Source: Halosegnis rubeus
GTDB taxonomy: Archaea > Halobacteriota > Halobacteria > Halobacteriales > Haloarculaceae
Assembly (NCBI RefSeq): GCF_009184545.1
Contig: NZ_QJOW01000002.1
Coordinates: forward strand, 434,001 to 498,000
Direction: 5' to 3'
DNA: 64,000 nucleotides
Every line of letters begins with the position of its first letter. The stretch's first letter is position 1. A program made the translations under genes and the position numbers. The notes beneath the pieces are model-generated. The model did no database searches and was not told the DNA's origin. It saw only the letters and a list, made by a program, of their open reading frames with translations. Of this stretch, positions 6,635-62,050 are shown piece after piece.

Positions 6635-7041
6635 CGACGACCTGCGCCGACTGCGAGACGTTTGTCACGCGAACGAGCTAGCTTTTGGACGAGTATGCAC
6701 ATACTGAATGAAATCAACTGCAAACGGTTAACTGTTGATTGGGATGTCTCCAAGCGATGGAAGGTGATTATATGCGACTAAACGCCGACAAGACGAATGC
6801 GCTCCTTGCGTGATTCCCTCTCGCCGGTGCCGACTACCGAGTAACCCAGACAGCGGCTCGCGAGTCGCGTAGGCTCCGGCTGTGGTCCGGTGGTTGCGAA
6901 GTATCGCGAAGGCCCCGGTGGTCGGCCACTGCTCGCCGCTGGCGGTCTTCTGCGTCCACGTCGAGAATCCGTACCTTGTCGGCTAGTCTGTCGTCGACGG
7001 TCTCGCTACGAGTGTTCGGAACTCACCGCAGGCAACTGTCG
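6635..7041. other. intergenic region, no gene recognised
   Basis: About 400 bases separate the NadE-like gene start from the lipoprotein gene end. Short open frames exist on both strands but none has convincing codon use or a recognisable product. The stretch from about 6680 to 6790 is AT-richer and should hold the promoter of the NadE-like gene. An imperfect palindrome with arms TCAAC/GTTGA lies near 6714-6738. No RNA gene could be folded by eye. Confidence 0.4.
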
Positions 7042-7806
7042 TTACGAGTGGCTGAACTCCTGCAGAATCACCGTGCTGCCCAGTCCCTCTTTGCTGTACC
7101 TGACGCTGATTTGATACTCGGCTTCGACCCCGATAGTCAGGGTGTCTCCCGGAACGAATTGCGACCGCTGCGTCGCCTCGGCGACTGTCACGCCGTCGGT
7201 CGAGATGTCGGGGTTGGCACCCTCGGGATCCACTATCGTCCCGCGGAACGTCAGTCCCTTCGCGGTAAGCGGTCCACCACCACTGTGTCTAACCGTCAGT
7301 ACACCGGTCTCGTCGCTGCTGGTCGGTGCCGAGTCGAACTCTGCGTCCATGAAGGCAGACGGCGGTCCCAGCGCCTCCCCATCGATGATGAGTCCACCGA
7401 CGATGAAAATCTGTCCGATGTACCACTCTTCTCTGGCCTCGGACAATCGAAAGGAGACCTCTTCCGTCCGCGACTCTCCCTGGTGCGTGATCGTAAGATC
7501 TGTCTCGAGAATCACGTACGTCCGTTCGCGAGTAGTTCGCCGCAAATCCCCGCGCTCGAACGTGTACTCTCCGATGTTGTCCGCCGTGAACGCACCGGCA
7601 GCCCACGACCCCACGGATTCGTCCACTGCGTCGGGGTCGTTCTCGTTCACGCCGGTGATGAACTGGTCGACAACTGCTTTTTGCGGCTTCAACTGGGACG
7701 ATTCTCCGCCCCCGTTGAGTCGGTTCAAACTCGCCGAGCAGCCGGCAAGCGCTACCATCGACAGACCCCCCGTGGTCGTCAGAAACTGTCGGCGTCGAGA
7801 TGGCAT
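7042..7806 (-). CDS. Tat-exported lipoprotein, function unknown
   Basis: 254 residues. The start at 7806 places a twin-arginine signal (MPSRRRQFLTTTGG) at the N-terminus, followed by the lipobox LAGC, so the mature protein should be a lipid-anchored cell-surface protein with Cys at about residue 22. An upstream in-frame ATG would put ten residues before the signal and is less likely. The mature part has an N-terminal region resembling SnoaL/NTF2-like spacing (VVDQFITGVNENDPDAVDE) and a C-terminal beta-rich segment. No enzyme motif is visible. Such proteins are abundant in haloarchaea and mostly uncharacterised. Confidence 0.8.
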   Translation of the reverse strand: MPSRRRQFLTTTGGLSMVALAGCSASLNRLNGGGESSQLKPQKAVVDQFITGVNENDPDAVDESVGSWAAGAFTADNIGEYTFERGDLRRTTRERTYVILETDLTITHQGESRTEEVSFRLSEAREEWYIGQIFIVGGLIIDGEALGPPSAFMDAEFDSAPTSSDETGVLTVRHSGGGPLTAKGLTFRGTIVDPEGANPDISTDGVTVAEATQRSQFVPGDTLTIGVEAEYQISVRYSKEGLGSTVILQEFSHS

Positions 7807-8008
7807 GACGTGTACAAGTCGGGAGTGAGGCTTCAATCCACCGGCAGATGCGGGCCGTCGTCCGTTTCTGAAAAGAGGTGGGTGCTACAGCCAGTCGATG
7901 CCCTCGATTCCGCACTCGTCGGGGGCAATACCGTCCGGAATGGCGGACGCACTTACAGTGAGTCCCCCCGAGACTTGTCAGTACACTCTGTAAAAAGTAT
8001 AAGTAGGG

Positions 8009-8068
8009 ATGCACCGACCGCGATTTGAACGCGGGTTGTGACCATGGCAAGGTCACGTGATACCACTA
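8009..8068 (-). repeat. left attachment site (partial tRNA-Gly copy)
   Basis: Identical over 60 bases to 21560-21619. It contains the anticodon arm, T arm and 3' acceptor strand of tRNA-Gly but lacks the 5' 12 bases, so it cannot fold an acceptor stem. On the coding strand, the host DNA beyond it (7981-8008) carries a T run that would have followed the tRNA before integration. Confidence 0.93.
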
Positions 8069-8086
8069 TCCCAAACGGCCGATTTT

Positions 8087-8651: not shown

Positions 8652-9524
8652 TTACGCTCGCTTGCGTAGTTCCTTGTGGAAGCTCCGTTCTGTCCGGTCT
8701 CCTTCCAGAACCTCAGCACCGTAGCGGTAGACCTCGATAAGCCCGCGGGCTATCTCTGGTGTCCATCCCTCAACCGCTGCTACTTGCTCCAGCCTGTCAG
8801 CCACCTCGCGAGCCTCATTTGCGGTATAGAGCGCGGACTCCCCGCGGCATGAAACCATCAGGCGCTCGCCCTCCAGTGCGGTAGTCAACCGGTGTTCTGT
8901 CACCTCCGCTCGTCCTTGTGCGAGTAGGGATTCAAACAGCGCCGGATGTGGTGGTTCGCCACGCTTCGCGGAAATCGCATTATCGACTCCGAGAAGGCCG
9001 CGGCGGACTCGGTGAGCCATCCGCGGTTCATCGTCTGCCAGCAGCGTAGCAATGAACTGATACACCCGCTGGCGAGGAATATCAGCTGAACTCTTCGTGG
9101 TCTCTTCCGTTACATCTGCCCGGTTTGGGACAACTGTGATATTGCCTTGCTCATCCAGCTCCACCTGCGGGAAGTCTGCCTCTGTGTGGTCGGCTGCCGC
9201 GTTCTCGGGGTGATTTTTTCTCCCGGCTACCTGTCCAAGATGGATGAGTACGCCATTTGCTCCTCTGAATGGCAGCGAACAGTAGGGGCACAAACGCGCC
9301 GAGTCTTCCGTCTCACGCTCTTCGGGGTAATCCATCGTTACCTCCCGCTCGCCGACTGTATCGAGGTTCTCGAAGTTGACCGAATCCGGTATCTCTCCTT
9401 GTGGACCGTGGCCGTTACCGGTCGTCTGACGAACGTGGAGATTGATGCCCCGAGCTAATGGAGTCGCATCACAGCCATCTACCGGACACCTCACAGTCCG
9501 CTCGTCGTTGCTGTGGTCCGTCAT
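8652..9524 (-). CDS. zinc-finger protein of mobile-element type
   Basis: 290 residues with two Cys/His clusters: CPVDGCDATPLARGINLHV near residue 13 and CPYCSLPFRGANGVLIHLG near 79, each followed by a further His. They resemble C2H2-like fingers. The rest is helical and carries no catalytic signature I recognise. The ATG overlaps the stop of the upstream gene by 4 bases (9521-9524), and the ribbon gene follows within 10 bases, so the three form one operon. DNA binding is the likely activity. Similar multi-finger proteins occur on haloarchaeal plasmids and proviruses; no precise function is known to me. Confidence 0.7.
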   Translation of the reverse strand: MTDHSNDERTVRCPVDGCDATPLARGINLHVRQTTGNGHGPQGEIPDSVNFENLDTVGEREVTMDYPEERETEDSARLCPYCSLPFRGANGVLIHLGQVAGRKNHPENAAADHTEADFPQVELDEQGNITVVPNRADVTEETTKSSADIPRQRVYQFIATLLADDEPRMAHRVRRGLLGVDNAISAKRGEPPHPALFESLLAQGRAEVTEHRLTTALEGERLMVSCRGESALYTANEAREVADRLEQVAAVEGWTPEIARGLIEVYRYGAEVLEGDRTERSFHKELRKRA

Positions 9525-9847
9525 TGGTTCCTCGCAGTGAAGCAGTCAAAACACGGCAGCTCATCGCTCTCTGGACCCGGACACCATGCTTCGTCGTTCA
9601 CGCAAGGCAGAGACGTTCCCTCTGTCTGCTTCGAGAACGCCGCCAGACCCCCTCCGGAACGTTTCAGTGGCGCGTGGGTTATCGCCTTCGTCATTACCCC
9701 CTCATCTGCGGTAGTCGGAACAGTACTCGCTGTCGTGACGGAAGATTCAGGTTCCGTCGATAGGTTAGCTTTCATTGGCGTTCTGCTATCCAGAAGGCCA
9801 CTCGTCCGGTGTTGTCGCACCGGGCGTTTTCGCGTATCACGCCCCAT
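9521..9847 (-). CDS. hypothetical protein with C-terminal cysteine cluster
   Basis: 108 residues if translated from the ATG at 9847; a second ATG at 9775 would remove an arginine-rich leader. The N-terminal two-thirds is Ser/Thr-rich and probably disordered. The last 30 residues hold four cysteines (C-x6-C-x9-C-x2-C in CVNDEAWC and CFDCF), which could bind one zinc ion. Its stop overlaps the start of the zinc-finger gene by 4 bases, which is the best evidence that it is real. I do not recognise a family. Confidence 0.5.
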   Translation of the reverse strand: MGRDTRKRPVRQHRTSGLLDSRTPMKANLSTEPESSVTTASTVPTTADEGVMTKAITHAPLKRSGGGLAAFSKQTEGTSLPCVNDEAWCPGPESDELPCFDCFTARNQ

Positions 9848-9951
9848 AGGGTGAGCGCCCTTCTACCAATAACTACGAGGTTAATGGAGTAAAGTCTTTC
9901 CCAGTAACCACAAGGTCAGAGGAACTTTCACACCGCGCACAAAGAGCGGGT

Positions 9952-10182
9952 ATGGGCCGCGAACGCGACGATTCTGGCAAATACACCAATGAGGTATCGC
10001 TTACCCGGGTTATCTCTGTATTTGAACGTGCCGAGATTCCCGTTTTAACGGCCAGCGAGGTCGCGGACAAGATTGACTGCTCACGGCCGACAGCATATAA
10101 CAAACTTGAGACACTGGTCAAACAGGGAGAAATTCAAAAAAAGAAGGTCGGGGCACGAGCGGTCGTGTATATCCGAATGTGA
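9952..10182 (+). CDS. winged-helix DNA-binding protein
   Basis: 76 residues. An HTH is evident in LTASEVADKIDCSRPTAYNK followed by KLETLVKQGEIQKKKVGARA, a typical winged-helix domain with a basic wing at the C-terminus. It is transcribed away from the small zinc-protein operon, and the roughly 100-base gap between them would suit an operator and divergent promoters. It is probably the regulator of the element's left genes. No ligand-binding domain is present. Confidence 0.8.
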   Translation: MGRERDDSGKYTNEVSLTRVISVFERAEIPVLTASEVADKIDCSRPTAYNKLETLVKQGEIQKKKVGARAVVYIRM

Positions 10183-10499
10183 GAGTAATCCACCAGCTGC
10201 TTGGCTTTCAAACCGGTTATTACACCAACTGGAACTTCCATCTGAATTATTAGTAACCCTCCGCGCGAAGATATGTCGAATTTGCCTGAATTTTGGGCTA
10301 TTCTGTTCTGACGTAGTTGAATCAAATTTTGGCGTTGTTACCACTGTTATTCTCGTCCTAAATCGTGCAATATATAAGCGAGCGTAATCATAGTGTAGTA
10401 GAGGCAGTTCTCAGATAGTCAACTTCTGGGAGCTACCGCTGTTCTGGCAATCATAGCATATGTATTGCCAGCCTCGGCTATGCCTCTCAATAATTAGTA
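10183..10499. other. AT-rich intergenic region upstream of helicase gene
   Basis: About 317 bases without a convincing gene, clearly AT-richer than the chromosome. A TATATAAG element at 10371-10378 is the strongest promoter candidate. Short open frames on either strand lack coding character. A replication or maintenance site could lie here, but I see no iterated repeats that would prove it. Confidence 0.4.
10371..10378 (+). promoter_or_regulatory. TATA-box-like element before helicase gene
   Basis: TATATAAG fits an archaeal TATA box. Transcription would start near 10400, leaving a leader of about 100 bases before the GTG at 10500, longer than usual for haloarchaea, so an additional small start or a different promoter is possible. 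Confidence 0.35.
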
Positions 10500-12467
10500 G
10501 TGGAAAATAACACCTGCACAAGCGATAGCAACGGACAGAATACGAACCAAGAAGTGACGAACAGTGGACCAACGACGGAAGAGATTCGTAACTCTCTGAA
10601 GTCAATTATTCACGAAACCATGCAGAACGGCGGAAACGCCGTAATTGAGGCACCGACATCCTCTGGAAAGACGTACACCGTTAGTACAACCAACTGGCGG
10701 GACCATCCTGAGATTGCTGGTGAACAGCCCGTTATCATGCTATCTGGAAGCAAGAAAGCCCGAGACAGTGCATTTGAACAGGGTAAAAGCTCATCTGCTG
10801 CCACAAAACGGCTGAGAGGACGTGAAGATACGTGTCCGCTTGCTTGGGGCGAGTATGACGAAGGAGAAAACAAAGTAATCGCTCCCGAGGGTATGGCCCC
10901 CTCTGCTTGGTTTGATGAGATGTGTAACACACGTGGCCATACATTCTCATTCGCGCACGGAGTATTTGAGAGAGCATATGACGGAGACCTACCCTGCTCT
11001 GAAGACGGAAAGTGTGCCTCTGCGGAACAGTGGGATGCCATCTCTCAGAAAGACGGAGAGGCTCATGATTACGATGTTCTCCATGCAACCCACATGTTCG
11101 CTCGGGTTCCCCAGCTGATTGTTGATTCTAACGTCGTCATTGACGAGTCTCCCGACTATTCAGTGAACCTCCCAAAGGGTCGGCTACGGGAGTCAGTTAC
11201 CAGCTACTTGGGTGAAATTGATGCGGACGTGAGCAGATGGGCAGATACAGTAACGCTACTCCGTCAAGGAGCACTACCTGAGGGATTCGCTGAGTCATTG
11301 GAAGACCCCGGTCGTGAGTGGTTCCGCGACGATTCAAATGCCCATGCACTCACGCCGGGAATCACCCGAGCGATAGCGACCGCCGAAGAGCGTTGTCACA
11401 ACCTGTGGGTTGGTGAGAGTGAATACTCGTATCCAGAACTAATACCGAACCGGGATACACCAGACAACAACATCACAATCAGAATTGTATTTGATGAGAA
11501 CAACGAAGTCCGGCTGCTGCAAGCGATTCCCGACTTCGAGAAGGCGCGGAGTATCATCGGGCTTGACGCATTTCCGACTATGCCACTGTGGGAGGGAAAT
11601 GTCCTGAAATCGCTTACATCGAAACAGGTGGTTGGTGATGAAGCCAAGCATCAGTGGCGTCGAAATACCCGCGAGCTACGAATCGTCCAAATTGGTGATA
11701 ACAAGAATACGTGGACAAGAAACGGATTCAATGAAGCGAAGGTGCGTGCTCTTGTTGAGGAACTACGCTGGCAGCACGGCGATGACTTTCAGACCGGAAT
11801 CACTTCGAAACGGTTCGAACCGCAATTACAAGAGATACTGACTGATGCCGATATAACAACCCCACAGACGCTTCACCTCGGTAATGAGAAGTCACTGAAT
11901 GACTTCGACTCCGAAGGGGTTGGATTGGTTGCAGGATGTATCAGCCCCAGTAGTGACCATATCAAAACGTGGTTAGCACTTCTTGACGGTGATGCAGCTC
12001 CGAAGCGAGAGTGCTTCAGCGATTATCAGGGGCAAGAGTGGCTTGGGCCGGGTTCATCAGTAGCCATGGAATTGCTAAACGATGTCCAACTCAACCACGT
12101 ATTGCAGTCCTGTGGACGGTATGCCCGTTCTCCAGAGAAGGACGACAGCGGCGCTACTGTCTATGTTCTATCCAATGTCCTTCCAGCTGAATGGACTGAC
12201 AAGAGCGTAGATGACGTTACTGTGCTTGGAAAGAAACAAAGAGATATTCTCGAATATCTGCGTCTCAACGAGAAAGTAGCTCCCTCCAGTATCGAGCAAC
12301 AGCTCGACGTTACCAGAAAATACGTACATGATACTTTGAATAAATACACAGACTATCCGTGGTTCAAAATGGAAGAGACAGAGGGTCACAATGAGCCGAA
12401 CTTGTACTCTACCGAACGGTGTCCGTCAGGGATTTTGGATATATCAGATACCCAAGGTGTGAACTGA
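10500..12467 (+). CDS. DinG/XPD-like SF2 helicase with putative Fe-S cysteines
   Basis: 655 residues from a GTG. Walker A APTSSGKT is at 51-58 and Walker B VIDES at 213-217. Exactly four cysteines lie between them (112, 142, 166, 172), the place where XPD/DinG/Rad3 helicases hold a 4Fe-4S cluster. A histidine-containing segment DVLHATHMF just before motif II recalls the XPD pattern. In the C-terminal half, QSCGRYARS looks like helicase motif VI. The last 90 residues (KKQRDILEYLRLNEKV and on) form a predicted winged helix. It should unwind or remodel DNA during replication or maintenance of the element. Sequence is AT-rich, consistent with horizontal origin. Fe-S assignment is inference. Confidence 0.75.
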   Translation: MENNTCTSDSNGQNTNQEVTNSGPTTEEIRNSLKSIIHETMQNGGNAVIEAPTSSGKTYTVSTTNWRDHPEIAGEQPVIMLSGSKKARDSAFEQGKSSSAATKRLRGREDTCPLAWGEYDEGENKVIAPEGMAPSAWFDEMCNTRGHTFSFAHGVFERAYDGDLPCSEDGKCASAEQWDAISQKDGEAHDYDVLHATHMFARVPQLIVDSNVVIDESPDYSVNLPKGRLRESVTSYLGEIDADVSRWADTVTLLRQGALPEGFAESLEDPGREWFRDDSNAHALTPGITRAIATAEERCHNLWVGESEYSYPELIPNRDTPDNNITIRIVFDENNEVRLLQAIPDFEKARSIIGLDAFPTMPLWEGNVLKSLTSKQVVGDEAKHQWRRNTRELRIVQIGDNKNTWTRNGFNEAKVRALVEELRWQHGDDFQTGITSKRFEPQLQEILTDADITTPQTLHLGNEKSLNDFDSEGVGLVAGCISPSSDHIKTWLALLDGDAAPKRECFSDYQGQEWLGPGSSVAMELLNDVQLNHVLQSCGRYARSPEKDDSGATVYVLSNVLPAEWTDKSVDDVTVLGKKQRDILEYLRLNEKVAPSSIEQQLDVTRKYVHDTLNKYTDYPWFKMEETEGHNEPNLYSTERCPSGILDISDTQGVN

Positions 12468-12747: not shown

Positions 12748-13470
12748 CTATACGTCTTGTTGCGAGAAGACCAGCCGCGTACTGTTCGAGTCAAGCCACT
12801 CAGAGTGTTCCGCGTAGTCCGGGTCGTACTCTGCAACGAGCGACCAAAACGAATCGTTATGACTTGACTCCTGAAGATGAGCCAATTCGTGAATCACGAT
12901 GTAGTCTACTATCTCTGGCGGAGCCATCATCAGCCGCCAATTGAATCCAAGCGTGCCTGTCGTGGAACAGGAACCGAACTTGGTTCGCTGGTTCCGTATC
13001 TCAATTTGTTCGTACTCTACGCCCATCCGGTCAGCAAAGTGCTTCGCTCGCTGCTCAAACACTTCACGTGCTTTGCGTTGATAGAGTGTCTCAAGAGCAC
13101 GTTTGACTGAGGTCTCCTCAACATGGTGGCGGGCCAACCGTAGGGTGTCCGTAGTAACGTCTGATGACGAACGACGTTCTACCACGACCTCGCGCTCGGA
13201 GCCGAGATACGGGAACATCGCGCCCTCTTCGTGCTTCCGGTCTGGAACCTGCTCACGGTACGTATCGTACTTCTCTTTCTTCTCTATGACCCATACCGCG
13301 TTCTGTTTGAGCAGCTCCTCAGGATGCTCTTCTGCTGTCTGTGGGACAACGACCGTGACGCCGTGAATATCCACGTCAATGCGCGGTTCAGTCGCGTCAA
13401 CACTCCGTCGGAGGTCGTACTCGATGGACTGGCCCAGTAGCTCTACAGTCCGGCGTTTGGTCTCAGCCAT
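12748..13470 (-). CDS. YgjP-like (DUF45, COG1451) metallopeptidase of RM operon
   Basis: 240 residues from the ATG at 13470. The C-terminal region holds the family signature: FGSCST near 165, NWRLMMAPP near 177, then HELAHL at 194-199 with the third ligand His at 204 (SSHNDSFW). This is the SprT/WSS-related zinc peptidase fold. Its start overlaps the hsdR stop by 8 bases, so it is translated with hsdR. COG1451 genes are known to accompany type I restriction genes in many bacteria and archaea; the function there is unproven, possibly proteolytic control of HsdR or of DNA-protein complexes. A longer upstream start lies inside hsdR and is unlikely. Confidence 0.88.
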   Translation of the reverse strand: MAETKRRTVELLGQSIEYDLRRSVDATEPRIDVDIHGVTVVVPQTAEEHPEELLKQNAVWVIEKKEKYDTYREQVPDRKHEEGAMFPYLGSEREVVVERRSSSDVTTDTLRLARHHVEETSVKRALETLYQRKAREVFEQRAKHFADRMGVEYEQIEIRNQRTKFGSCSTTGTLGFNWRLMMAPPEIVDYIVIHELAHLQESSHNDSFWSLVAEYDPDYAEHSEWLDSNSTRLVFSQQDV

Positions 13471-16423
13471 TATTCTGGATGAGATAGTTCCGTACGTCGT
13501 CAACGAATCCGTCATCATCTTGGATGAGGTGGCCGAGGTCGTGCTCTACGACTAACACATCCAGCAAGATTCGTTCAATCTCCGCGATGGTCTGCTGGTT
13601 TGTCTTCCAGCCAGAGTACCCTCGGTCAACGCGGTCACGGAACTGTGTGACAACCGCCTCTGCGACTCTCTCCGCCTGCTCATCGGACTCTATCGCCTCG
13701 GCTGTCTCCTCGGTCAAGTGCGTGTAGATGGCGAACTCGGCGGCTTCCATTCCCTCGTTATCGGCTTCTCTCTCAACGTTCAACACCTCTTTCTCAATCG
13801 ATTTGAGTGCTTCAACCGCTTCGGGGTCGCCAATCTCATCGCCCTGCCACCGTTCCACTATATCAGTCACCCGCTCACTTAGCCGCTTGTACCGGGGATT
13901 CTGATTCTCGCGTGGATGGAGATGCTCGCGGGTTGCGTGCGCTATCTGTGAAGCCTTGACGCCGGGGTTATCGAGGCCTTCAGCGTCTTCGAGAATCTCC
14001 TCGCCAAGCTTGTAGGTCGGGAAGTCACGCTTAATCTCCGAAATATCAACATGCTTGTTGATTATCTCCCGCGTCTTCTCGCGCATCTCCTTCTCGGGGT
14101 CGTCGTCGCCTGAGGTCGTACGCTTGAACGCGACGTGAATCCGGCTCAGCCACTTGTAGTCTCGTTCGATACCCTCACTTACGAGTCGCCCATCGGGTGC
14201 GACGGCTTCGTAGAGATTCTGAAGCCGGCGGAAGTTCTGCTTGAACTCGCGGCGTTCCGGGTGCGTGCTGACGCGTTCAATGGCCTCGGAGGTCGCTTCT
14301 TGCGTGTCAGTCTTCGGAATCCCATCGAAAATGCCCATTACCCGCTCAACCTGCTCAACGAGGTCATTGTAGAGTTCGTCTTTGTCGCGGGCGGCGTAGG
14401 CTTTCGTCTCGGCGTCGTAGTCAAGCGCCTCGTCGATGTTCTCGAAGACGCCTTGGAAGTCCACAATCTCGCCATTCTCTTTCCCTGCAGCAGGCCGGTT
14501 CGTCCGGGCGATAGCCTGCATTAGATTGTGATTTTTGAGATTGCGGTCAAGATACATCGTCTTGAGTATCGGCGCGTCGAAGCCTGTGAGGAGCATATTG
14601 TGGACGACGAGGAGTTTCGGGTTCCCCTGCTCTTTGAACGCCTTGACGATACTGTCACGCTCCTCAGAGTCCGTATGGAACTGCTTGATGAGGTCGGAAT
14701 CGTCCTTGGTCGAAGTATAGAGAACCTCTATCTCCTCAGCTCCCCGTCGCTCGGCTAATCGTTCTCCGTACATCGCTGCCGACCGCCGGCTCGGAGTGAC
14801 AACCATGCCCTTCCACCCGTTCGGGGAAACGTGTTCGTCGTAGTGTGCGTCGATTTCCTCGGCGGCCTTCTCGACACGTGGCTCCAGCTCGGCAAGCGTC
14901 GTCGCAGTCACGCTCTCGCGGATAGCATCGCGTTTCTCGTCCGTACTCATCCCTCGAAACTCCTGCTCAAACTCCTCATCAAGCCCTGCTTCGTCAATGT
15001 CCCACTCCATCTCATGTCGGAGCGTGAAGTACACAGGGAGGATTAGGCCGTCGTCAATCCCCTGCTTGACCGAGTACCGGTGAAGGTAGTCCTCACCCTC
15101 TGGAGAGAACTCGCGGAAGGTGTTCTTGTCCTTCTCGCGTTCTCCCTCGCGGACAGGTGTGCCGGTGAACCCGAAGTGGTAGCAGTTCGGAAGTGCGGCT
15201 TCGAGTCGGCTCCCGAGGTCAGCCTCCATGAAGCGGTGCGCCTCGTCACTCATCACGACGACCTCATCATTCCCTTGTACGTCGGGGTCAACATCCTCGA
15301 ACTTCTGGATGGTCGTGAGGACAAGCTGGCTGCTTCCCTCCTCGATGAGCTGCTGGAGGTGGTCAATGCTCTCGGCCTCCGTCCACTGCTCCAGCGAGAG
15401 ATTCGCCAGCTGGTCGCGCATCTGACTGTTGAGCTTGTCCGTATCAACGATGATGAACACCTGCGGATTCCGGGCAACGTTGGGCCTCGAAAGTAGATTC
15501 TCGGCGGCATACAACATTGTGAACGACTTGCCCGACCCCTGTGTGTGCCAGATGAGTCCGCGCTTGTGGTCGGCGGTTCTCACGCGGTCAAGGATGCGAT
15601 TCACGGCGTAATACTGCATGTAACGCGGGATGATTTTCGCGTCACCACCCGCACGCCGCTCGTAGAATACGAAGTGCTTCAGCAGGTCAAGAATCGAACC
15701 GGGGTTACACAGCGCCCGGATTGCCTGCCGCATCTCGTTCTCGTCGGCAAACTCGTCAGGGGCGTCATTCCATGGCTCATAGAACTCCGTGGGTGCGCCA
15801 ACAGCACCGTAGCGAAGTTCCATCGTATCCGCGGCGACGTTGAACAGGCCGGGCACGAACAGCCGAGACACATCCTCCTCGTAGTCCTTCAGGTCGCGGA
15901 CCGCATCGTGCCAGTCGTTGTCCTGTGCGAGACTTTTCAGCTCCATCGTCACGAGCGGAATCCCGTTCACGAACAGCGTCACGTCCGGGCGGATGGTCGT
16001 CTCGCGGGCGACGGAGAACTGATTCACCGCGTGGAAGCGGTTACTCTCGGGGTTCTCGTAGTCGATGAGGTCAACGTAGATGGTGTCGGCGGTTCCGTCG
16101 GAACGTTGGACGCTGAACGATTTGCCTTTCGTGAGCAATCGGTGGAAGGCTTGATTCCCGTCCATCAGGTTCTCGGTATCGAGGTCGCGACGAAGCGAGG
16201 AGATGAATTTATCAACGTTGTCCTCGGTCACGGCCTCGTTGAGGGCGACGACCTGCTCCGCGAGCAGTTTCCAGTAGATGACCGCGTGGCTGTCGCGCTC
16301 GTAGGCGTCATCGAGAACGTTCGCACCGCGTCCGCCGTCCTGTCCGTGTGTCTCCCACCCGACGCCGTCGAGCCACGAGAGAATAGAGCGTTCGACGCCG
16401 GCTTCCGACGGGAGACTAACCAT
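13463..16423 (-). CDS. hsdR: type I restriction enzyme, R (motor/nuclease) subunit
   Basis: 986 residues. An N-terminal PD-(D/E)xK nuclease domain carries Asp147 and Glu161-Leu-Lys163. The translocase part has Walker A TQGSGKS at 294-300, DEAH at 393-396 and TGTP at 420-423, with motif VI-like IARTNRPA further on. The C-terminal helical region contacts the methylase complex. HsdR cuts unmodified foreign DNA after ATP-driven translocation, together with HsdM and HsdS. All catalytic residues I can check are present, so it looks functional. It overlaps hsdS and the YgjP gene by 8 bases each. Confidence 0.96.
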   Translation of the reverse strand: MVSLPSEAGVERSILSWLDGVGWETHGQDGGRGANVLDDAYERDSHAVIYWKLLAEQVVALNEAVTEDNVDKFISSLRRDLDTENLMDGNQAFHRLLTKGKSFSVQRSDGTADTIYVDLIDYENPESNRFHAVNQFSVARETTIRPDVTLFVNGIPLVTMELKSLAQDNDWHDAVRDLKDYEEDVSRLFVPGLFNVAADTMELRYGAVGAPTEFYEPWNDAPDEFADENEMRQAIRALCNPGSILDLLKHFVFYERRAGGDAKIIPRYMQYYAVNRILDRVRTADHKRGLIWHTQGSGKSFTMLYAAENLLSRPNVARNPQVFIIVDTDKLNSQMRDQLANLSLEQWTEAESIDHLQQLIEEGSSQLVLTTIQKFEDVDPDVQGNDEVVVMSDEAHRFMEADLGSRLEAALPNCYHFGFTGTPVREGEREKDKNTFREFSPEGEDYLHRYSVKQGIDDGLILPVYFTLRHEMEWDIDEAGLDEEFEQEFRGMSTDEKRDAIRESVTATTLAELEPRVEKAAEEIDAHYDEHVSPNGWKGMVVTPSRRSAAMYGERLAERRGAEEIEVLYTSTKDDSDLIKQFHTDSEERDSIVKAFKEQGNPKLLVVHNMLLTGFDAPILKTMYLDRNLKNHNLMQAIARTNRPAAGKENGEIVDFQGVFENIDEALDYDAETKAYAARDKDELYNDLVEQVERVMGIFDGIPKTDTQEATSEAIERVSTHPERREFKQNFRRLQNLYEAVAPDGRLVSEGIERDYKWLSRIHVAFKRTTSGDDDPEKEMREKTREIINKHVDISEIKRDFPTYKLGEEILEDAEGLDNPGVKASQIAHATREHLHPRENQNPRYKRLSERVTDIVERWQGDEIGDPEAVEALKSIEKEVLNVEREADNEGMEAAEFAIYTHLTEETAEAIESDEQAERVAEAVVTQFRDRVDRGYSGWKTNQQTIAEIERILLDVLVVEHDLGHLIQDDDGFVDDVRNYLIQNNG

Positions 16424-17699
16424 ACTGGGCGATGTCGTCAGGCACCTCTATGGTAGTGTCGGTCGTTCGGACTGTTCCCGAGAGGAGGTCCTGCATGAGA
16501 CCGCGCTTGAGACGTTTCAACCCCGTCAAATATTCGATATTCGAATGTCTAGCTTCATCGTAAATCGAGAGCGTGTCAACAATTTCCTGTTGCTCCTCAA
16601 GTGGCGGATTGAATATCGCGAAAGATTCGAAACTGCTCTTATTCACGATTGGGGTTGCTGTTTGTCCAGCCTGAGATTTGATGAAATCAGAGAGGACTTG
16701 CAGATGGTAATACAGGAATTCCGGAAGATAGGACTCATCTTCAATAACAACAGAGTTGATTTGCTGGTTAGTCGCCACTTCGCATCCCGAAATTGCAACT
16801 TTACCCATATCACTCCCAATACAGTCCATCATTACCGACCCCTCCGGTATGGGTTTAGCCTCGTTTCGGCCTGCTTCAGATAACGTCCTGCTGGATTCAA
16901 TCACGTACTTACCCTGAGATAGAGTTGCAGGGGTGACGAATGGTAGAGTTCCTCCAAAGTTACTCTCATTATCCGTGGATGGTGTGTCTCCTGTGACAAC
17001 CTTCCCAATTGAGGATATTTCTGTTGTCTCCCAAGTTATTGGTATTTGGAACTGCTTCGGCCCAAGCCGTTCCGTTTTCGTTTCTATGTCGGGTTTTTTT
17101 CTCTGTTTCTCTTTCCCGAATAGCGAACGGAGCAAGCCCTGTTGGACAGTATGCATCTGCTCAACAGTCTCCTCAGTCTTCTCAATCGCCCGGTCAACCG
17201 TGTAGAGTACGGTGGCGATTTTGCGCTGTTCGGGGAGTGGTGGGGAGGGAACAGTAACATTCCCTATAGTTGATTGGTTTAGGAGAGGTTGGGCCGTTTT
17301 GGTCGCGAGAGAACTCAATTCTTTATTTGACAAGAAGTAATAAAGGAAGTCCGTGTTACACTTGTCGGTCACGCTGGCTTGAATCGCGTTATCGGAAACC
17401 CACGCAGGTTCTTGGACTCGTTCAACCTCACCAACTGCCCCGACACGACCGAATATTAGCCCCCCGTCGAAATTCGATTCCGAGTAAGAGCCGATAGGCC
17501 CGTTTGAACCATAGACAAGAAACTGTTGTTCCCCAATTTCTGCGTGGTTCGTTGCTTTCCCATTACGCAACGCACACAATTCATTAACGTTCTTCGTGTC
17601 CCAATCTACCGGGAGTTGCCCTGCCGCAGTTTCAACGAACTCCCCATCTACCTCTGATTCGTCTTCAACAAACTCGTCCAGCGTAGCCTCCTCACTCAT
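16416..17699 (-). CDS. hsdS: type I restriction enzyme, specificity subunit
   Basis: 427 residues with the two-part layout of HsdS. Each half is a target-recognition domain followed by a conserved helix: PLPEQRKIATVL near 155 and PPLEEQQEIVDTL near 380. The spacer helices contain TVEQMHTVQQGLLRSLFG and GLKRLKRGLMQDLLSG. HsdS sets the bipartite DNA target for both methylation and cutting; the target itself cannot be read by eye. The gene is the most AT-rich of the operon, as is common for recombining specificity genes. It overlaps hsdM and hsdR by 8 bases. Confidence 0.95.
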   Translation of the reverse strand: MSEEATLDEFVEDESEVDGEFVETAAGQLPVDWDTKNVNELCALRNGKATNHAEIGEQQFLVYGSNGPIGSYSESNFDGGLIFGRVGAVGEVERVQEPAWVSDNAIQASVTDKCNTDFLYYFLSNKELSSLATKTAQPLLNQSTIGNVTVPSPPLPEQRKIATVLYTVDRAIEKTEETVEQMHTVQQGLLRSLFGKEKQRKKPDIETKTERLGPKQFQIPITWETTEISSIGKVVTGDTPSTDNESNFGGTLPFVTPATLSQGKYVIESSRTLSEAGRNEAKPIPEGSVMMDCIGSDMGKVAISGCEVATNQQINSVVIEDESYLPEFLYYHLQVLSDFIKSQAGQTATPIVNKSSFESFAIFNPPLEEQQEIVDTLSIYDEARHSNIEYLTGLKRLKRGLMQDLLSGTVRTTDTTIEVPDDIAQYG

Positions 17700-19218
17700 A
17701 GTTCAACGCCTCCATATGCTCGTTCATCGTCGCTTCAATCTCATCTCGCTCGGCCTGCAACTCGCGGAGTTTCGCCAGTTCTTCCTCCACGTCAATCTCC
17801 TCCTCCGGCTCCGTCGTATCGACGTACAGCGCGATATTCAGATTATAGTCATTCTCACGAATCTCGTCCAGCGCCACCGTCCGACTCACGCGTTCTTCGG
17901 TCGTCCACTCAGTAAAGTTCTCAACGATGTGGTCAACTCCCGCGTCAAGAAGCTCATTCTGATTCGATAGCTCCTGATAGAAATCCTCGTCTGCGGCGTG
18001 AATGAACTGCACCTCGTCCTCACGCTCGGCTGGCTTGTCCGTGTTCAGCACGAGGATACCGGACGGAATCGAAACGTTCTGGAAGAGATTCTCGGGGAGG
18101 CCGACAATCGCCTCCACCATATCGTTCTCCAGCATTGGCTTCCGATACCGCCCCTCGTGCTTACGGAACAGCACGCCGTGAGGGATGACAATCGCAGCCT
18201 TTCCGCCCGCGCCGTCCGTATCAGGCCGCTTCAGTTGCTTGGCCATGTGCATGATGAACGCGTAGTCACCACGGTCGGCACGCGGCAGTTTCTCGTGCCA
18301 GTCGAACCGGCCATACGGGTCGTCCTGCAGGCCGTCCTTGTCCCAGTTGGCCGAGAACGGGAAGTTCGCCAGCACACGGTCGTAGCGCGTGAGTTCGTTC
18401 GCGTCGTCGTCAGTGAACGCCGGACTTGACAGGGAATCCTCGCGCCGTACCTCCCCGTTGAAGCCGTGGATGGAGAGGTTCATTTTCGCGATGGCGGCGA
18501 TATCAGGGTTCACCTCTTGGCCGGTGAAGGTGAGTTTCGTCGGGTCGCCACCCTGCTCGTCGCGGTAGTAGCGCGCGGCCTCGATGAGCATCCCACCGGA
18601 GCCAACCGTCGGGTCGTGGAACGTCATGCCGTCCTCGAAGGAATCGACCAGCCGCACGCAGAGATTGACAAGCTCCGGGGGCGTGAAGAACTGCCCGCCC
18701 TCCTTGCCTTCCTCCTCGGCGAAGTGGCTGACCAAGTCCATGTACGCCTCGCCGAGCACGTCCGGCGGGATGCTGTCGCGGTCAAGGTCGTGCGTGGAGA
18801 GATGTTCAACGAGCTTCCCGAGTCGGTCGTCGTCAAGCGCGTCGGCGGCGATATAATCCGCCCGGAAAACACCCTGTAGTTCGGGGTTCTCCTCTACCAG
18901 AGCCTCAAACGCATCGTTGAGGGTTTGGTCGATATTGTCGCTCGTCGCTCGAAGGTCGTCCCACAGATAGCCCTCGGGGACGATAGGTACGTCATAGAGA
19001 TTGTTTCGACGTGCGAAGTCCTCACCGTACTCCTCAAGATTCTCGGCATACTGCTTCTCGAACTCGTCGGAGATGGACTTGTAATAGACGAGCGGGAGAA
19101 TATACTCCTTGTAGTCCGTCGGGTCAACGGCGTCCCGAATTATATCGGCGCACTTGAACAGATGCGTTTCGAGGTCGTTCAAAGAGAGAGGCATATTGGT
19201 AGTGTTCTGTGGAGACAT
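17692..19218 (-). CDS. hsdM: type I restriction enzyme, adenine methylase subunit
   Basis: 508 residues from the ATG at 19218, which has an AGGA Shine-Dalgarno-like motif about 6 bases upstream; an ATG at 19194 would start at the usual family N-terminus (MPLSLNDLETHLF) and is an alternative. The N-terminal helical domain is followed by the SAM-binding motif DPTVGSGG at about 202 and the catalytic NFPF (N-P-P-F/Y class) at about 285. This fits N6-adenine methylases of type I systems. It is the first gene of the hsdM-hsdS-hsdR-ygjP operon; the C-terminus ends in a coiled coil that would contact HsdS. Confidence 0.95.
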   Translation of the reverse strand: MSPQNTTNMPLSLNDLETHLFKCADIIRDAVDPTDYKEYILPLVYYKSISDEFEKQYAENLEEYGEDFARRNNLYDVPIVPEGYLWDDLRATSDNIDQTLNDAFEALVEENPELQGVFRADYIAADALDDDRLGKLVEHLSTHDLDRDSIPPDVLGEAYMDLVSHFAEEEGKEGGQFFTPPELVNLCVRLVDSFEDGMTFHDPTVGSGGMLIEAARYYRDEQGGDPTKLTFTGQEVNPDIAAIAKMNLSIHGFNGEVRREDSLSSPAFTDDDANELTRYDRVLANFPFSANWDKDGLQDDPYGRFDWHEKLPRADRGDYAFIMHMAKQLKRPDTDGAGGKAAIVIPHGVLFRKHEGRYRKPMLENDMVEAIVGLPENLFQNVSIPSGILVLNTDKPAEREDEVQFIHAADEDFYQELSNQNELLDAGVDHIVENFTEWTTEERVSRTVALDEIRENDYNLNIALYVDTTEPEEEIDVEEELAKLRELQAERDEIEATMNEHMEALNYE

Positions 19219-19349
19219 CAAATGTCCTGCGATGGGGGTGGGGGAGACGCGATGGGCCGGACCCACCGCTTAGGAGTAAGAAAGCGGGCGTTCTCGGAAC
19301 ATACGTCGCAAGGCGAAAAAGCGGTGTATGGAAGCCCTACAGCTGTCCC

Positions 19350-20173
19350 TCACAACACTCCGTCAATGAGATGATTCAGATTCTCTCGTTCCTCCTCGGG
19401 CATCGCTTCGACTCCGCGTGCAGCTTGTGTCTCGCTTAATTCGGGAAGGTCTGCCGCAAGTCGCTCCATCTCTCCTCTATCGGCTGTTTTGGGTGAGCCG
19501 TTGCTCTCTCCACAGGAGCTTCCCCCGGTATGCCCGTGGAGGGCCTGCTTCGATGAGAATGACTGCCCACACGAATCACAAACATGCGTCTCGGCGTCTT
19601 GCTCTGTAGTCGTTTCACCACTACTCGTGTCTGTGTCCAAGTACTCCGAAAGTGTCTCTTTGACCGATTCGATACGTTCTCTGAGTTCGTCTCGCTCTGC
19701 CCGTAGCTGCCGATTTTCTTGCTTGAGTCTACGCACTTCTCTCTCAAGCTCTGCGTCTCCAGATTGACCTGATTCGCTATCGTCCCAAACCGCCGGCAGC
19801 TCGTACTCTGCTGGAATCCAGATAGGGTCGTCCCCGTCTCGCTGTTGAATACCCAACTCTTGCATTTCTGTTTGGGGTATCTTCCGGGTGTCCCCACGTG
19901 GAGCGTCAAACTCGTCTTTGTACTCGGGAAGGCTCCCCGGCAGCTCCCGACATTTCTCTTTGAATTCCTCCTTCTTATTGTAGAAGTGAATGTAGTGGCG
20001 GGCAAGCGGAGAACTGTCTTCTTCTTGTTTCGTCGTTCTGCGCTGTTTAGCACAGGTCCGACGTACCGGACACAATCTACGTACAGCCAGTAGGCCTCAT
20101 ACAATTCCTTCCGACTCTGGAACGTGGAACTGTCTTCTGTCGTGGTTTCATCAGCTGGTAGGTCAATTCCCAT
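19350..20173 (-). pseudogene. zinc-finger/coiled-coil protein gene, reading frame interrupted
   Basis: The 3' part (19350-20075 frame) encodes a sensible protein: a long coiled coil (ELEREVRRLKQENRQLRAER and on), a finger CDSCGQSFSSKQALHGH, and an acidic tail. The 5' part lies in another frame and begins MGIDLPADETTTEDSS at 20173, reading through KELYEAYWLYVDC and NSAERR. The two sensible parts meet at about 20030-20050, in an A-rich stretch (GAAACAAGAAGAAG on the coding strand), and require a -1 shift. It could be a frameshift mutation, a sequencing error or recoding. If only the 3' frame is used from 20075, the product has an odd basic leader. Confidence 0.6.
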
Positions 20174-20292: not shown

Positions 20293-21426
20293 CTACCACT
20301 TGGAGTTCACTTTCCCAAGTCGCCCCTCAGCTCCCGAGTGAGCATATCCGAGCGTCGTCTCCACCTTCTTATGTCGTAACTGCTCGCGTGCGTCCTGAAT
20401 ATTTTCCTCGTCAGCCCACACAGTCGCTACGCCGTGTCGAATCGAGTACCACGTTAATTCACGTCCAGCAGGCTGAATCTCTGCCGACTCGATAAGCTTC
20501 TCAAGTAGGTAGTTCAGCGGACTTGAGCCGTACACGTTGCCCTTGTCGTTTAGCCACAGCGCGTTCGTCCCTTCGTACTTCTCGTACGTTGAACGCTCTC
20601 CGAGCCACTTCCGGAGTGTGCGGAGGCTCTTGTCTGATAGAACGCATCTCCAGTTCTCTACGTTCTTACTCGACTCCTCCTTTGGAATGTCAAGCGTGGC
20701 GTTATCGAGATTCACCCAGTCAACAGTCGCTCGTCCGACCTCAACTGGACGAAGGCCACAATCCAGCGCGACCGAGACAAGTGACGGTATCTTGAATGAG
20801 TTTGCACGCTGGAACGCTTCAGGTCCAATCTGTTCTTTCGGAGTTTCAAACCGCTGTGCAAGGACGCGCTTCAGTGCGTCTCGTTCAGCCGGCGTACACG
20901 AGTGGTAGTGCTTGACTGCTCCGTGCTTGAGCGCGGCCTCATACAGCGCCCGAAACTCGTCTTTCTTGAAGTAGTCTCGGTTGGTGACGTTTGGCTCGTT
21001 GAGATTTAGACGACACTCCCACTCGATGCTCCTCCGTCGTTCGTGGTTGTAAAACTGGAATACACGTTTGATGACCTTGACGAAGGTGTTGAGATTCGCG
21101 TCTCCGTACTCGCTGTACCGGCCAAGCTCCTTCATGAGTTGGTCGGCGTCTTCGGGTGTCAGCTCTGTCGTGTATCCGCGTTCGTTCCAGAGCCACCGCA
21201 TAATCTGGTCTGTTTTGTAGCTTGTATTCCGGACTGTACGGTCGGAGTATCCTCGGAGACGGTCGGGGTCTTTCCCCTCGGTCAGGAGCCATTCGAGTAG
21301 CTCCCGTTTCCAACTGTCATAATCTGTCTGCGCGCGGGCGTGCTGGTCTGCGAGAGAATCAATCGTCTCCTCGGCAACAATGGGAAAATCAAATGTCGCC
21401 TCTGCCGCTTCTCCAGCAAAGTTCAT
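20293..21426 (-). CDS. tyrosine recombinase integrase of the element
   Basis: 377 residues. The C-terminal catalytic domain has Arg226 (CGLRPVEVG), Tyr327-x-x-Arg330 (TWYSIRHGVAT), His352 (QLRHKK) and the nucleophile Tyr361 (TTLGYAHS). The N-terminal SAM-like core-binding domain occupies about 30-130. It would catalyse integration and excision at the tRNA-Gly sites. It lies 134 bases from the intact tRNA, the usual place for an integrase, and all catalytic residues look intact, so excision may still be possible. Confidence 0.94.
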   Translation of the reverse strand: MNFAGEAAEATFDFPIVAEETIDSLADQHARAQTDYDSWKRELLEWLLTEGKDPDRLRGYSDRTVRNTSYKTDQIMRWLWNERGYTTELTPEDADQLMKELGRYSEYGDANLNTFVKVIKRVFQFYNHERRRSIEWECRLNLNEPNVTNRDYFKKDEFRALYEAALKHGAVKHYHSCTPAERDALKRVLAQRFETPKEQIGPEAFQRANSFKIPSLVSVALDCGLRPVEVGRATVDWVNLDNATLDIPKEESSKNVENWRCVLSDKSLRTLRKWLGERSTYEKYEGTNALWLNDKGNVYGSSPLNYLLEKLIESAEIQPAGRELTWYSIRHGVATVWADEENIQDAREQLRHKKVETTLGYAHSGAEGRLGKVNSKW

Positions 21427-21559: not shown

Positions 21560-21619
21560 ATGCACCGACCGCGATTTGAACGCGGGTTGTGACCATGGCA
21601 AGGTCACGTGATACCACTA
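21560..21619 (-). repeat. right attachment site inside tRNA-Gly
   Basis: Sixty bases identical to 8009-8068. The match ends inside the D arm of the tRNA on its 5' side and one base past the discriminator on the 3' side, so integration rebuilt a complete tRNA. Confidence 0.93.
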
Positions 21620-21631
21620 CACTATCGGTGC
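21561..21631 (-). tRNA. tRNA-Gly (anticodon GCC)
   Basis: A 71-base cloverleaf on the minus strand. The acceptor stem GCACCGA pairs with TCGGTGC followed by discriminator A. The D arm contains AGTGGTA, the anticodon stem TGACC/GGTCA holds the loop TTGCCAT with anticodon GCC, and the T loop is TTCAAAT within GCG/CGC pairs. CCA is not encoded. This is the integration target of the neighbouring element. Its present 3' flank belongs to the element and has T runs that can end transcription. Confidence 0.96.
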
Positions 21632-59427: not shown

Positions 59428-60153
59428 ATGGGAAAACAGCCGCACCTGCTCGTCGAGGAAGGAGACGTGAACGACATCGCGCTCGTCCCCGGCGACCCGG
59501 GCCGCGTCGAGCGCATCGCCACACAGTGTGAAAACGTCGAGACCGTCGCCGAAAACCGCGAGTACAAACTCGTCAATGCGACCTACGAGGGTCGCGAGCT
59601 TACCATCTGCTCGACCGGTATCGGCTGTCCGTCTGCGGCCATCGCCGTCGAGGAGCTGGCGCGGGTCGGCGTCGAGACGTTCATCCGCGTCGGCACCATC
59701 GGCGCGCTCCAGTCGGATATCGAGGTCGGTGACATGATCGTCGCGACCGGCGCAGCGAAGGAGGAAGGCACCTCCAAGCGCTACGAGTCGGAGACCTACC
59801 CCGCCGTCCCGGACTACCAGACGCTGACGGCGCTCGTCCAGTCGGCCGAAGCCAACGACGAGGAGATTCACGTCGGTCCCATCGTCTCGGACGACGCCTT
59901 CTACAACGAGTCCGACGAGTACGTCGCCGACTGGAACGAGGCGAATCTGCTCGCCATCGAGATGGAGGCCGCGACTGTGTTCTCGCTCGCACGCCGCCGC
60001 GGGCTCGCCGCCGGCGCAATCTGTACCGTCGACGGCAACCTCGTCGCCGGCACCCAGAAGGGAGCCGACTCCGACGAGGAGCTGCCGGAGAAGGCGAAGA
60101 ACAACGTCGAGCGCGCCATCGCCATCGCCCTCGACGCAGCGAGCGACCTGTGA
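59428..60153 (+). CDS. udp: nucleoside phosphorylase (uridine phosphorylase-like)
   Basis: 241 residues. DIALVPGDPGRVERIATQC binds phosphate, TGIGCPSAAIAVEEL and RVGTIGALQSDIEVGDMI are the core, and AIEMEAATVFSLARRRGL is the nucleoside site. This is the PNP/Udp family; uridine phosphorylase is the closest by pattern, with other nucleosides possible. The stop codon lies 2 bases from the TnpB stop on the other strand, so the IS element abuts the gene. Confidence 0.92.
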   Translation: MGKQPHLLVEEGDVNDIALVPGDPGRVERIATQCENVETVAENREYKLVNATYEGRELTICSTGIGCPSAAIAVEELARVGVETFIRVGTIGALQSDIEVGDMIVATGAAKEEGTSKRYESETYPAVPDYQTLTALVQSAEANDEEIHVGPIVSDDAFYNESDEYVADWNEANLLAIEMEAATVFSLARRRGLAAGAICTVDGNLVAGTQKGADSDEELPEKAKNNVERAIAIALDAASDL

Positions 60154-60230
60154 ACTACCCCACCCTGCTCGCGCTGACGCGCTCGCTGAGGGTGGGGCTT
60201 CCTGCTTCCACGACGCGCTTTGCAGGAACA
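60154..60230 (-). ncRNA. putative omega RNA at the tnpB 3' end
   Basis: TnpB guide RNAs come from the 3' end of tnpB and continue past the element edge. A perfect 9-bp stem at 60158-60166/60189-60197 with a GC-rich loop lies exactly there. The guide part would continue into the nucleoside phosphorylase gene. No direct evidence of transcription exists in the sequence. Confidence 0.4.
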
Positions 60231-61414
60231 ACCGCAGTTCCCACAGGGAGCGCAGTCTCCACAGGCGTTGATTCGGAGTAACCCACTCCTAGTTCGGTGA
60301 GTCCGCGAGAAAGAATGTTCCACGCTGCGTTTGCGTCTCTGTCTGCCTCGAAGCTACAGGCAGGACAGGAGTGTTCACGCACCCACAGCGGTTTGTCGGT
60401 TTCGACACCACACTGAGCGCACTCTTTGGTAGTTCCTTCAGGTCCAACTTCGACGAAGTGCGTGCCTTCACGCTCACACTTCGTTTCGAGCATATCGGTG
60501 AAGGTATTCCACGCCGCTGACGCCGTATTGCGGCTGTTTCGCTGTGATTCGAGCATCCCTTTCACGTCAAGGTCTTCGACGGCCACCAGTTCGTACTCCC
60601 GAGCGTAGTAGTTCGAAAGTTTGTGCAGGAAGTCACGCCGCTTGCGCTTGATGTCGAGATGGCACTCAGCGACACGCCGACGTTGCTTCTGCCAGTTGTT
60701 CGACTCGTATGCTTTCTGGGAGAGCTTCTGTTGCTCTCGTTCGAGCCTGTCGCGTTCTTCTGAGAGGGCGAGTGATTCGACCGCTGTGCCGTCTGTATCG
60801 TGGGCATACTTCAGAATACCCACGTCGATGCCAACCATGTCGTCAGTGTCAATATCCGCCAGCGGTGGCTTGGCTGGCGGTTCTGTGTCCATCTCAATAC
60901 CGAAGATAGCGAACCACTCGCCGGGTTTCTCTTTTTTCAGTGTGACTTCTTTGATTGTCGCATCCTCGGGTAGCGGTCGGTGGAGTTCGATGGGGATGTC
61001 TGCGAGTTTCGACAGCGACAACACGGTCTGCCCACCCTTCTTGTCGAGTTCGAAGCCAGACTGGTTGTAGGTGAAACTGCGAAACTCGCGTGGTGACTTC
61101 CACCGGAGTTCACCAACCTTGTAGCCCTGCTCTTTGAGTTGTCCGAGGCGTTTGATATTCTTGGCAATCCGCATGACAGTGGGCTGAAGCACCTTTGAGT
61201 ACACATCGGTAAGTGCGTCCCACCAGTCTTTGAGATCGGGAAGCTCGTCACGGATTTTACGGACACGCTGTTTGACGGTGCCCTCGTCTTCTGGAATCTG
61301 GTTGAAACGATACAGGGTGTGGTTGTAGAGCTGTCTACAGGTATCGCGGTGGTAGTCCAGCGTCTCACGCTGGCTTTCGGTCGGCGTGAGGCGATACCTG
61401 TAGTTGTAGTTCAT
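60155..61414 (-). CDS. tnpB: RNA-guided nuclease TnpB (OrfB family)
   Basis: 419 residues. The N-terminal helical domain starts MNYNYRYRLTPTESQRETLD. The RuvC core has Asp197 (VGIDVGILKYA), Glu280 (LVAVEDLDVKG) and Asp360 (DRDANAAWNIL), all catalytic. The zinc ribbon uses Cys332, 335, 350 and 353 (CAQCG, CPAC). Nothing is truncated, so it should be an active omega-RNA-guided DNA nuclease. It follows a 40-residue gene with 3 bases between stop and start. Confidence 0.95.
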   Translation of the reverse strand: MNYNYRYRLTPTESQRETLDYHRDTCRQLYNHTLYRFNQIPEDEGTVKQRVRKIRDELPDLKDWWDALTDVYSKVLQPTVMRIAKNIKRLGQLKEQGYKVGELRWKSPREFRSFTYNQSGFELDKKGGQTVLSLSKLADIPIELHRPLPEDATIKEVTLKKEKPGEWFAIFGIEMDTEPPAKPPLADIDTDDMVGIDVGILKYAHDTDGTAVESLALSEERDRLEREQQKLSQKAYESNNWQKQRRRVAECHLDIKRKRRDFLHKLSNYYAREYELVAVEDLDVKGMLESQRNSRNTASAAWNTFTDMLETKCEREGTHFVEVGPEGTTKECAQCGVETDKPLWVREHSCPACSFEADRDANAAWNILSRGLTELGVGYSESTPVETALPVGTAVVPAKRVVEAGSPTLSERVSASRVG

Positions 61415-61417
61415 GGG

Positions 61418-61540
61418 CTATGAGTCGCGTTCTTCGATTAGCTCGTCTAGTTTCTCTTGAACGAACGAGGAGAGATTCAGGTGGTTCTCCTGAATCCATT
61501 CTTCTTGGTCTTCACGGATGGTGATTGTCTTCCGTTTCAC
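61418..61540 (-). CDS. 40-residue ribbon-helix-helix-like protein upstream of tnpB
   Basis: A short gene with a GTG start. Translation gives MKRKTITIREDQEEWIQENH and then LNLSSFVQEKLDELIEERDS, with a beta-strand, turn and two helices: the CopG/MetJ/Arc-type RHH pattern. It ends 3 bases before the tnpB ATG, which supports co-translation. It could repress the IS promoter. Similar tiny genes precede some haloarchaeal tnpB genes. The start is uncertain by a few codons. Confidence 0.7.
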   Translation of the reverse strand: MKRKTITIREDQEEWIQENHLNLSSFVQEKLDELIEERDS

Positions 61541-61640
61541 CGTATGAATACTATATGCTTAATGCATAATATATGCTTGGATTACGTGGACCTGTGGGAC
61601 TGCAAAAATCATGTGTCGGAAAATGATGACGGCGGTGTAT

Positions 61641-61696
61641 CCCCTTCCTACTGCGCTACTCGGCCTTCGGCCTGCGTTGCTCCTTGAGGAAGGGGG
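61641..61696. repeat. large hairpin at the left end of the IS element
   Basis: CCCCTTCCT (61641-61649) pairs with AGGAAGGGG (61687-61695), and GGCCTTCGGCC folds inside. Subterminal hairpins of this type are the recognition sites of IS200/IS605 transposases. Confidence 0.55.
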
Positions 61697-61735
61697 CTTA
61701 CCGCCTGCATTCAGCTAAAACGAGACTGCCAGCCG

Positions 61736-62050
61736 TTACGTTTCGTCGGCGTGCATCGCCGCCAGCACGTCGACCTCCTCGATCTTCGGCTCGCCCGCGA
61801 GCAGGTCGTCCTCGTCGGCCATCAGCGCGGCCGCGATCTCACCTTCGAGGTGAGCCTGTCGGCCCTCCTGGTCCGGGAACGTATCGAAGATGCCGAACCT
61901 CGACTCGTCGAAGCGGAGCGCGAACCACGTCGTCATCCCCGGCTCCTCGCGTGCCATCGCGAGCGCGTCGGTCAGGAAGCCCGCGAGCGCTTCCTCGCTC
62001 CCGTCGTTCGCCTCGAACCGTGCAAGGAGTGCATACTCGGAGTCCTCCAT
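61736..62050 (-). CDS. antibiotic biosynthesis monooxygenase (ABM) domain protein
   Basis: 104 residues from the ATG at 62050. ALLARFEANDGSEEALAGFL, EEPGMTTWFALRFDESRFGI and FDTFPDQEGRQAHLEG are the pattern of the small dimeric ferredoxin-like ABM/quinol monooxygenase family. Function in haloarchaea is not known; putative quinol monooxygenase is the usual name. Residues before position 13 of the longer frame look non-coding. Confidence 0.85.
   Translation of the reverse strand: MEDSEYALLARFEANDGSEEALAGFLTDALAMAREEPGMTTWFALRFDESRFGIFDTFPDQEGRQAHLEGEIAAALMADEDDLLAGEPKIEEVDVLAAMHADET

Follow-up and report, generated by a model that had tools for sequence, protein, structure and literature searches.

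The window studied here is a stretch of 64,000 nucleotides from Halosegnis rubeus, and the question it raises concerns one gene: what does a helicase resembling XPD and DinG do for the mobile element that carries it? An earlier note on this DNA had described the gene as a mobile helicase with an XPD/DinG-like four-cysteine insert and a C-terminal DNA-binding domain. The open reading frame begins with a GTG codon, and because in-frame stops lie upstream of it, a longer N-terminus was ruled out. Searches of Pfam, NCBIfam and the PDB sequences with the single window protein returned almost nothing. Neither DEAD_2 nor Helicase_C_2 of Pfam matched it at E 1, and both were absent among the 25 of 32 families listed for 40 family members at E 0.01. 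PHROGs gave a match to phrog_27506 (E 3e-27), which has no assigned function. The coordinates of the gene, its motifs and its neighbours are collected in Table 1.

The helicase motifs were clear in an alignment of 103 family members. Lys57, Asp215, Glu216, Gln536, Arg540 and Arg543 were present in all 103 rows and Gly56 in 102. Motif VI of the window protein showed the QxxGRxxR pattern of XPD and DinG; its Gly539 was a glycine in only 47 rows. The C-terminal region matched the profiles of MarR, ZitR and TFE winged-helix (wHTH) structures, and HTH families were matched in many relatives, which bears out the proposed DNA-binding domain.

An AlphaFold2 model was built with 40 family sequences (mean pLDDT 88.1, pTM 0.87). 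Foldseek against the PDB placed XPD (8rev, E 1e-11) at the top, followed by the XPD chains of TFIIH and, further down, S. aureus DinG (E 9e-9), CasDinG (E 5e-8) and DdmD (E 6e-7), with moderate TM-scores of 0.4-0.5. Hna was also among the fold matches. In a viral structure library the matches were archaeal and phage helicases, including SSVK1 B494 and a phage DinG-like protein. The family sequence profile matched XPD 2vl7 (E 2e-4), and hhalign matched a haloarchaeal XPD at 95% probability. The window protein is thus predicted to be an SF2 helicase of XPD/DinG-like fold, as the earlier note had proposed.

Between Walker A and Walker B the window protein has exactly four cysteines (112, 142, 166 and 172), just as the earlier note had counted, and they had been taken for the ligands of an Fe-S cluster. 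Among the 103 diverged homologues aligned, three of the four were conserved: Cys112 in 100 rows, Cys166 in 99 and Cys172 in 100 (96-97%). Cys142 was a cysteine in only 47 of the 103, and the 55 sequences lacking it had any other cysteine there in only 9 cases, so the four-cysteine ligand set was rejected. The earlier note had named a lack of conservation in homologues as grounds for refutation; judged in that way, three of the four cysteines hold up and Cys142 does not. The residue overlooked earlier was His153, present in 101 rows (98%). Only Cys112, His153, Cys166 and Cys172, together with Pro165, formed columns conserved to at least 95% between the two motifs. Some members have lost the ligands jointly. 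The near-identical L062 and L141 lost Cys112, Cys166 and Cys172 together, and L052, on a contig of 9,051 bp, lost all four ligands; Cys142 was kept in each case, as were the helicase motifs. Ligands were thus lost jointly on two independent occasions, which is few but points to one shared metal. Because the four residues are conserved and lost in a coupled manner while Cys142 is dispensable, the pattern of conservation predicts a single metal site of C-H-C-C type, for Fe-S or Zn, that lies between motifs Ia and II. The Fe-S idea holds for the position and for three of the four ligands; as for the metal, Fe-S is one of two candidates.

There is a substantial chance, somewhat short of even, that the site is a structural zinc, in which case the resemblance to XPD would lie only in fold and position. 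The conserved set of three cysteines and one histidine fits zinc, the spacings between the ligands vary widely among family members, and two lineages lost the site and retained the helicase motifs. On the other hand, the site occupies the Fe-S position of XPD, and Cys112 pairs with the first Fe-S cysteine of XPD in both the sequence profile and hhalign alignments. DinG-like proteins with one cysteine replaced by histidine (e.g. CCHC) are also on record and may still bind Fe-S (PMC11981726). The lineages with joint ligand loss are natural experiments on the purpose of an XPD-type metal site.

Table 1. Features of the integrated element and of its helicase gene (window coordinates).
Feature	Coordinates	Strand	Basis
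att repeat, left copy; 3' part of tRNA-Gly(GCC), truncated	8009-8068	-	60-bp perfect direct repeat with 21560-21619
Zinc-finger-like protein, 290 aa	8652-9524	-	phrog_14797, E 3e-50; adjoins helicase in L037, L061
Small Cys-rich protein, 108 aa, divergent from helicase	9521-9847	-	Homologues near helicase in L036, L037
Small winged-helix protein, 76 aa, upstream of helicase	9952-10182	+	HTH_20, E 1e-5; TrmB, E 3e-5
Predicted XPD/DinG-like SF2 helicase, 655 aa, C-terminal winged helix	10500-12467	+	ORF, AlphaFold model, Foldseek, alignment
Walker A (motif I), APTSSGKT, residues 51-58	10650-10673	+	Motif and family alignment
Predicted metal-site region; C112/H153/C166/C172 conserved, C142 (10923-10925) not	10833-11015	+	103-row alignment
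Walker B (motif II), invariant D215-E216	11130-11153	+	Motif and family alignment
Motif VI, QSCGRYAR, residues 536-543	12105-12128	+	Q536, R540, R543 invariant
Winged-helix domain, about residues 575-640	12222-12419	+	wHTH structure profile matches; helices and strands of model
YgjP-like metallopeptidase (cargo)	12748-13518	-	PF01863, E 8e-54
Type I restriction subunit HsdR (cargo)	13463-16423	-	Profile and PADLOC matches
Type I specificity subunit HsdS (cargo)	16416-17699	-	Profile and PADLOC matches
Type I methyltransferase HsdM (cargo)	17692-19266	-	Profile and PADLOC matches
Coiled-coil and C2H2-like zinc-finger protein	19350-20075	-	zf-C2H2_6, E 2e-4, below cut-off; homologue in L037
Tyrosine integrase, adjoining intact tRNA	20293-21426	-	PF00589, E 2.5e-13
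att repeat, right copy; within intact tRNA-Gly(GCC) gene 21561-21631	21560-21619	-	Repeat, ARAGORN and empty sites

The description of the gene as mobile was confirmed. It sits in an integrative element of 13,551 bp (spacing from repeat to repeat) inserted in tRNA-Gly(GCC), with a perfect 60-bp direct repeat at its ends and an integrase beside the intact tRNA. The empty site was found in four congeneric genomes (G002-G005), where a single tRNA-Gly joins the left and right flanks. ARAGORN also calls a tRNA-Gly(gcc) at 8011-8080; its acceptor stem is unpaired, which marks it as the truncated copy and makes it a trap for annotation. The DNA to the left of the element is variable as well, as about 6783-7964 gave no alignment to the congener G004 and the preceding DNA was 91% identical. 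Elsewhere in the window, at 60001-62000, G+C falls to 0.57 from about 0.65 in the surroundings, possibly another island.

Several neighbours of the helicase recur with it. Both members of the divergent Cys-rich gene pair lie beside the helicase in L037, and single members do so in L036 and L061; a small HTH-like gene comparable to that of the window also precedes the helicase in L036. The YgjP-hsdR-hsdS-hsdM cassette (12748-19266) was also found beside a solo helicase of the distant clade (L067:1304-7264), with identities of 84% for HsdR, 78% for HsdM and only 35% for HsdS, and a partial copy lies beside a helicase of the close group (L037:1008-1872). This restriction-modification (R-M) cargo moves between elements with different helicases.

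Given this cargo, the element might be a mobile defence island whose helicase opposes incoming DNA, either together with the Type I R-M system or alongside it, much as CasDinG, DdmD or Hna would. Those three proteins are among the fold matches of the helicase, PADLOC gave a weak, partial typeIV_DinG match (E 4e-6), and some relatives also carry R-M or methyltransferase cargo. We consider this role quite unlikely. The helicase is constant and the R-M cargo variable, several elements (L036, L048) being without R-M; no CRISPR or DdmE-like partner was present, and PADLOC showed no partner genes. The primase fusions of its relatives, described below, fit replication and not interference. The earlier note had named replication or anti-defence as the role, and the second of these is very improbable: only the presence of the gene on a mobile element speaks for an anti-defence helicase, neither anti-defence neighbours nor a match to known anti-defence proteins were found, and the primase fusions again point elsewhere.

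That the gene sits on a haloarchaeal mobile element, as had been suggested, was supported by its setting, and relatives of it are common. With the protein as query, 79 of 293 relatives' genomes, the window's own among them, had a homologue; with a profile search 132 of the 391 genomes sampled from the class did, about a third. Identity to the window protein over the helicase core was about 33-57% in a close group and about 21-24% in a distant one. Public plasmid records label the members hypothetical or winged-helix/MarR proteins. For ten solo-type relatives the surrounding element is bounded by tRNA att repeats of 24-54 bp and spans 6.0-14.5 kb; the tRNAs used are Leu, Ser, Lys, Arg, Val, Thr, Pro and Phe. 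In the two smallest of these elements (L048 and L051) the integrase and the helicase are the only large genes by the gene calls of a simple script. At 40 of 100 loci the helicase has a tRNA within 2.5 kb, mostly a short way upstream and on the same strand; if 50 tRNAs in 3.5 Mb are assumed, chance alone would give roughly one locus in ten. The helicase is a backbone gene of small tRNA-inserted mobile elements of haloarchaea.

Members also occur on plasmids and on provirus-like contigs. Tblastn with the window protein found no homologue in named phage records; when a fused relative served as query, the matches were weak and confined to its primase part. A single-sequence scan of IMG/VR found no homologue, and an alignment scan of it found 13 loci. 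On the IMG/VR contigs L213, L216 and L220 a family member lies upstream of the terminase large subunit, with a portal gene in L213 and L220; because these genes lie near family members, tailed proviruses appear to use the helicase family too.

The architecture of the relatives bears most directly on function. An N-terminal primase domain is present in about 40 of 107 homologues (about 40%, with one plasmid entered twice), and it is of NrS-1-like AEP, Prim-Pol or DnaG-like TOPRIM type. The pooled N-termini matched 6a9w/6k9a, which we take to be the primase of phage NrS-1, at E 2e-16, and 7ola, presumably the primase of SaPI5, at 1e-10. Other fused N-termini matched Prim-Pol (PF09250) or DnaG-type domains (DNAG_N; phrog_849, E 5e-11). 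The window protein falls together with L036 and L037 in a tree of the helicases (100% SH-aLRT), and all three are solo. At least 17 changes of architecture are required on this tree, including switches between near neighbours such as L040 (Prim-Pol) and L044 (AEP); since the tree was built quickly and has some long branches, the exact counts of changes are soft. Fusions to three primase types point to a little-studied family of replication proteins, as judged from domain matches. Such swaps offer a direct way to test how primer synthesis is coupled to unwinding.

Two circular plasmids of 8.9 and 10.8 kb have the fused form as their only recognisable replication gene; several of their genes are without assigned function. 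The window element likewise has several genes without assigned function, and no replication gene besides the helicase was recognised in it. No primase was detected in the window protein or in its element, fused or nearby, and no separate primase gene of the three types was found near the solo helicases. This lack of a primase near solo forms would suit an accessory DNA-processing helicase, serving excision, repair or transfer of the element while the host does all replication. XPD and DinG are repair helicases, and the gene often adjoins the integrase (L047, L050, L065). Such a role is nevertheless unlikely, as the fused cousins carry primases and are the sole recognisable replication genes of the small circular plasmids.

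Replication is the likelier role, because relatives are fused to three primase types and the family supplies the sole recognisable replication gene of small elements. The window protein and its closest relatives are without a primase, so this role is carried over from fused cousins of 30-40% identity. In our view the protein probably belongs to a family of primase-helicase replication proteins of haloarchaeal mobile elements and is its stand-alone version, which has no primase and would act as an ATP-dependent SF2 helicase. In the proposed course of events, the integrase would first cut the element out of tRNA-Gly, yielding a circle. The winged helix may then bind an origin, plausibly in the AT-richer intergenic region (about 10.2-10.5 kb) before its own gene; neither iterons nor a clear origin were found in 9848-10520. 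The motor would load on single-stranded DNA and unwind the duplex. The primase-less form would use the host primase and polymerase, and in the fused relatives the fused domain would prime.

The wider proposal, to which we give even chances, is a haloarchaea-wide replication family: a replicative helicase of XPD/DinG type with a C-H-C-C (possibly Fe-S) site would serve plasmids, integrative elements and tailed proviruses, swapping AEP, Prim-Pol and TOPRIM primases and, in the solo form, relying on the host primase. In many small archaeal elements the XPD/DinG fold seems to have been adopted as the core of the replication proteins, and the family offers a handle for locating the replicon of many cryptic haloarchaeal elements.

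Among known systems, XPD/Rad3 and DinG, including CasDinG, are the nearest in the motor. They share the fold detected by Foldseek, motif VI and the metal-site insert between motifs Ia and II with its first cysteine aligned to XPD. Research on XPD and DinG helicases treats them as enzymes of repair and as CRISPR effectors. The family differs from them in its C-H-C-C ligands, in contrast to the four cysteines of the 4Fe-4S cluster, and in having a C-terminal wHTH and, among the Pfam families listed, no match to DEAD_2 or Helicase_C_2. The primase fusions of the relatives are not among the ten subgroups of bacterial DinG (PMC11981726). In the literature searched, which leaves out most subscription journals, no XPD/DinG-like helicase fused to primases was described.

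Betapleolipovirus/SNJ2 Rep (HRPV-3 ORF9) is likewise a replication protein of haloarchaeal mobile elements with a wHTH region. Kinship with HRPV-3 ORF9 was ruled out by profile comparison (6% probability, wHTH only), and RepSNJ2 is a rolling-circle endonuclease (PMC13107129).

In domain order, the fused relatives resemble pRN1 ORF904, NrS-1 PrimPol, the SaPI5 primase-helicase and Mpal_2033, having an N-terminal primase, a helicase and a C-terminal wHTH, and their carriers are also small plasmids and integrated elements. The window protein has the C-terminal wHTH of these primase-helicases and lacks the fused primase. The nearest analogues are pRN1 ORF904 (AEP-SF3-wHTH) and Mpal_2033 (primase-SF1-HTH-Zn), and Mpal_2033 has primase-less homologues too (PMC4158269). 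What sets the present family apart is its motor, predicted to be an XPD/DinG-like SF2 helicase, whereas that of ORF904 is SF3 and that of Mpal_2033 is SF1 (PMC4158269).
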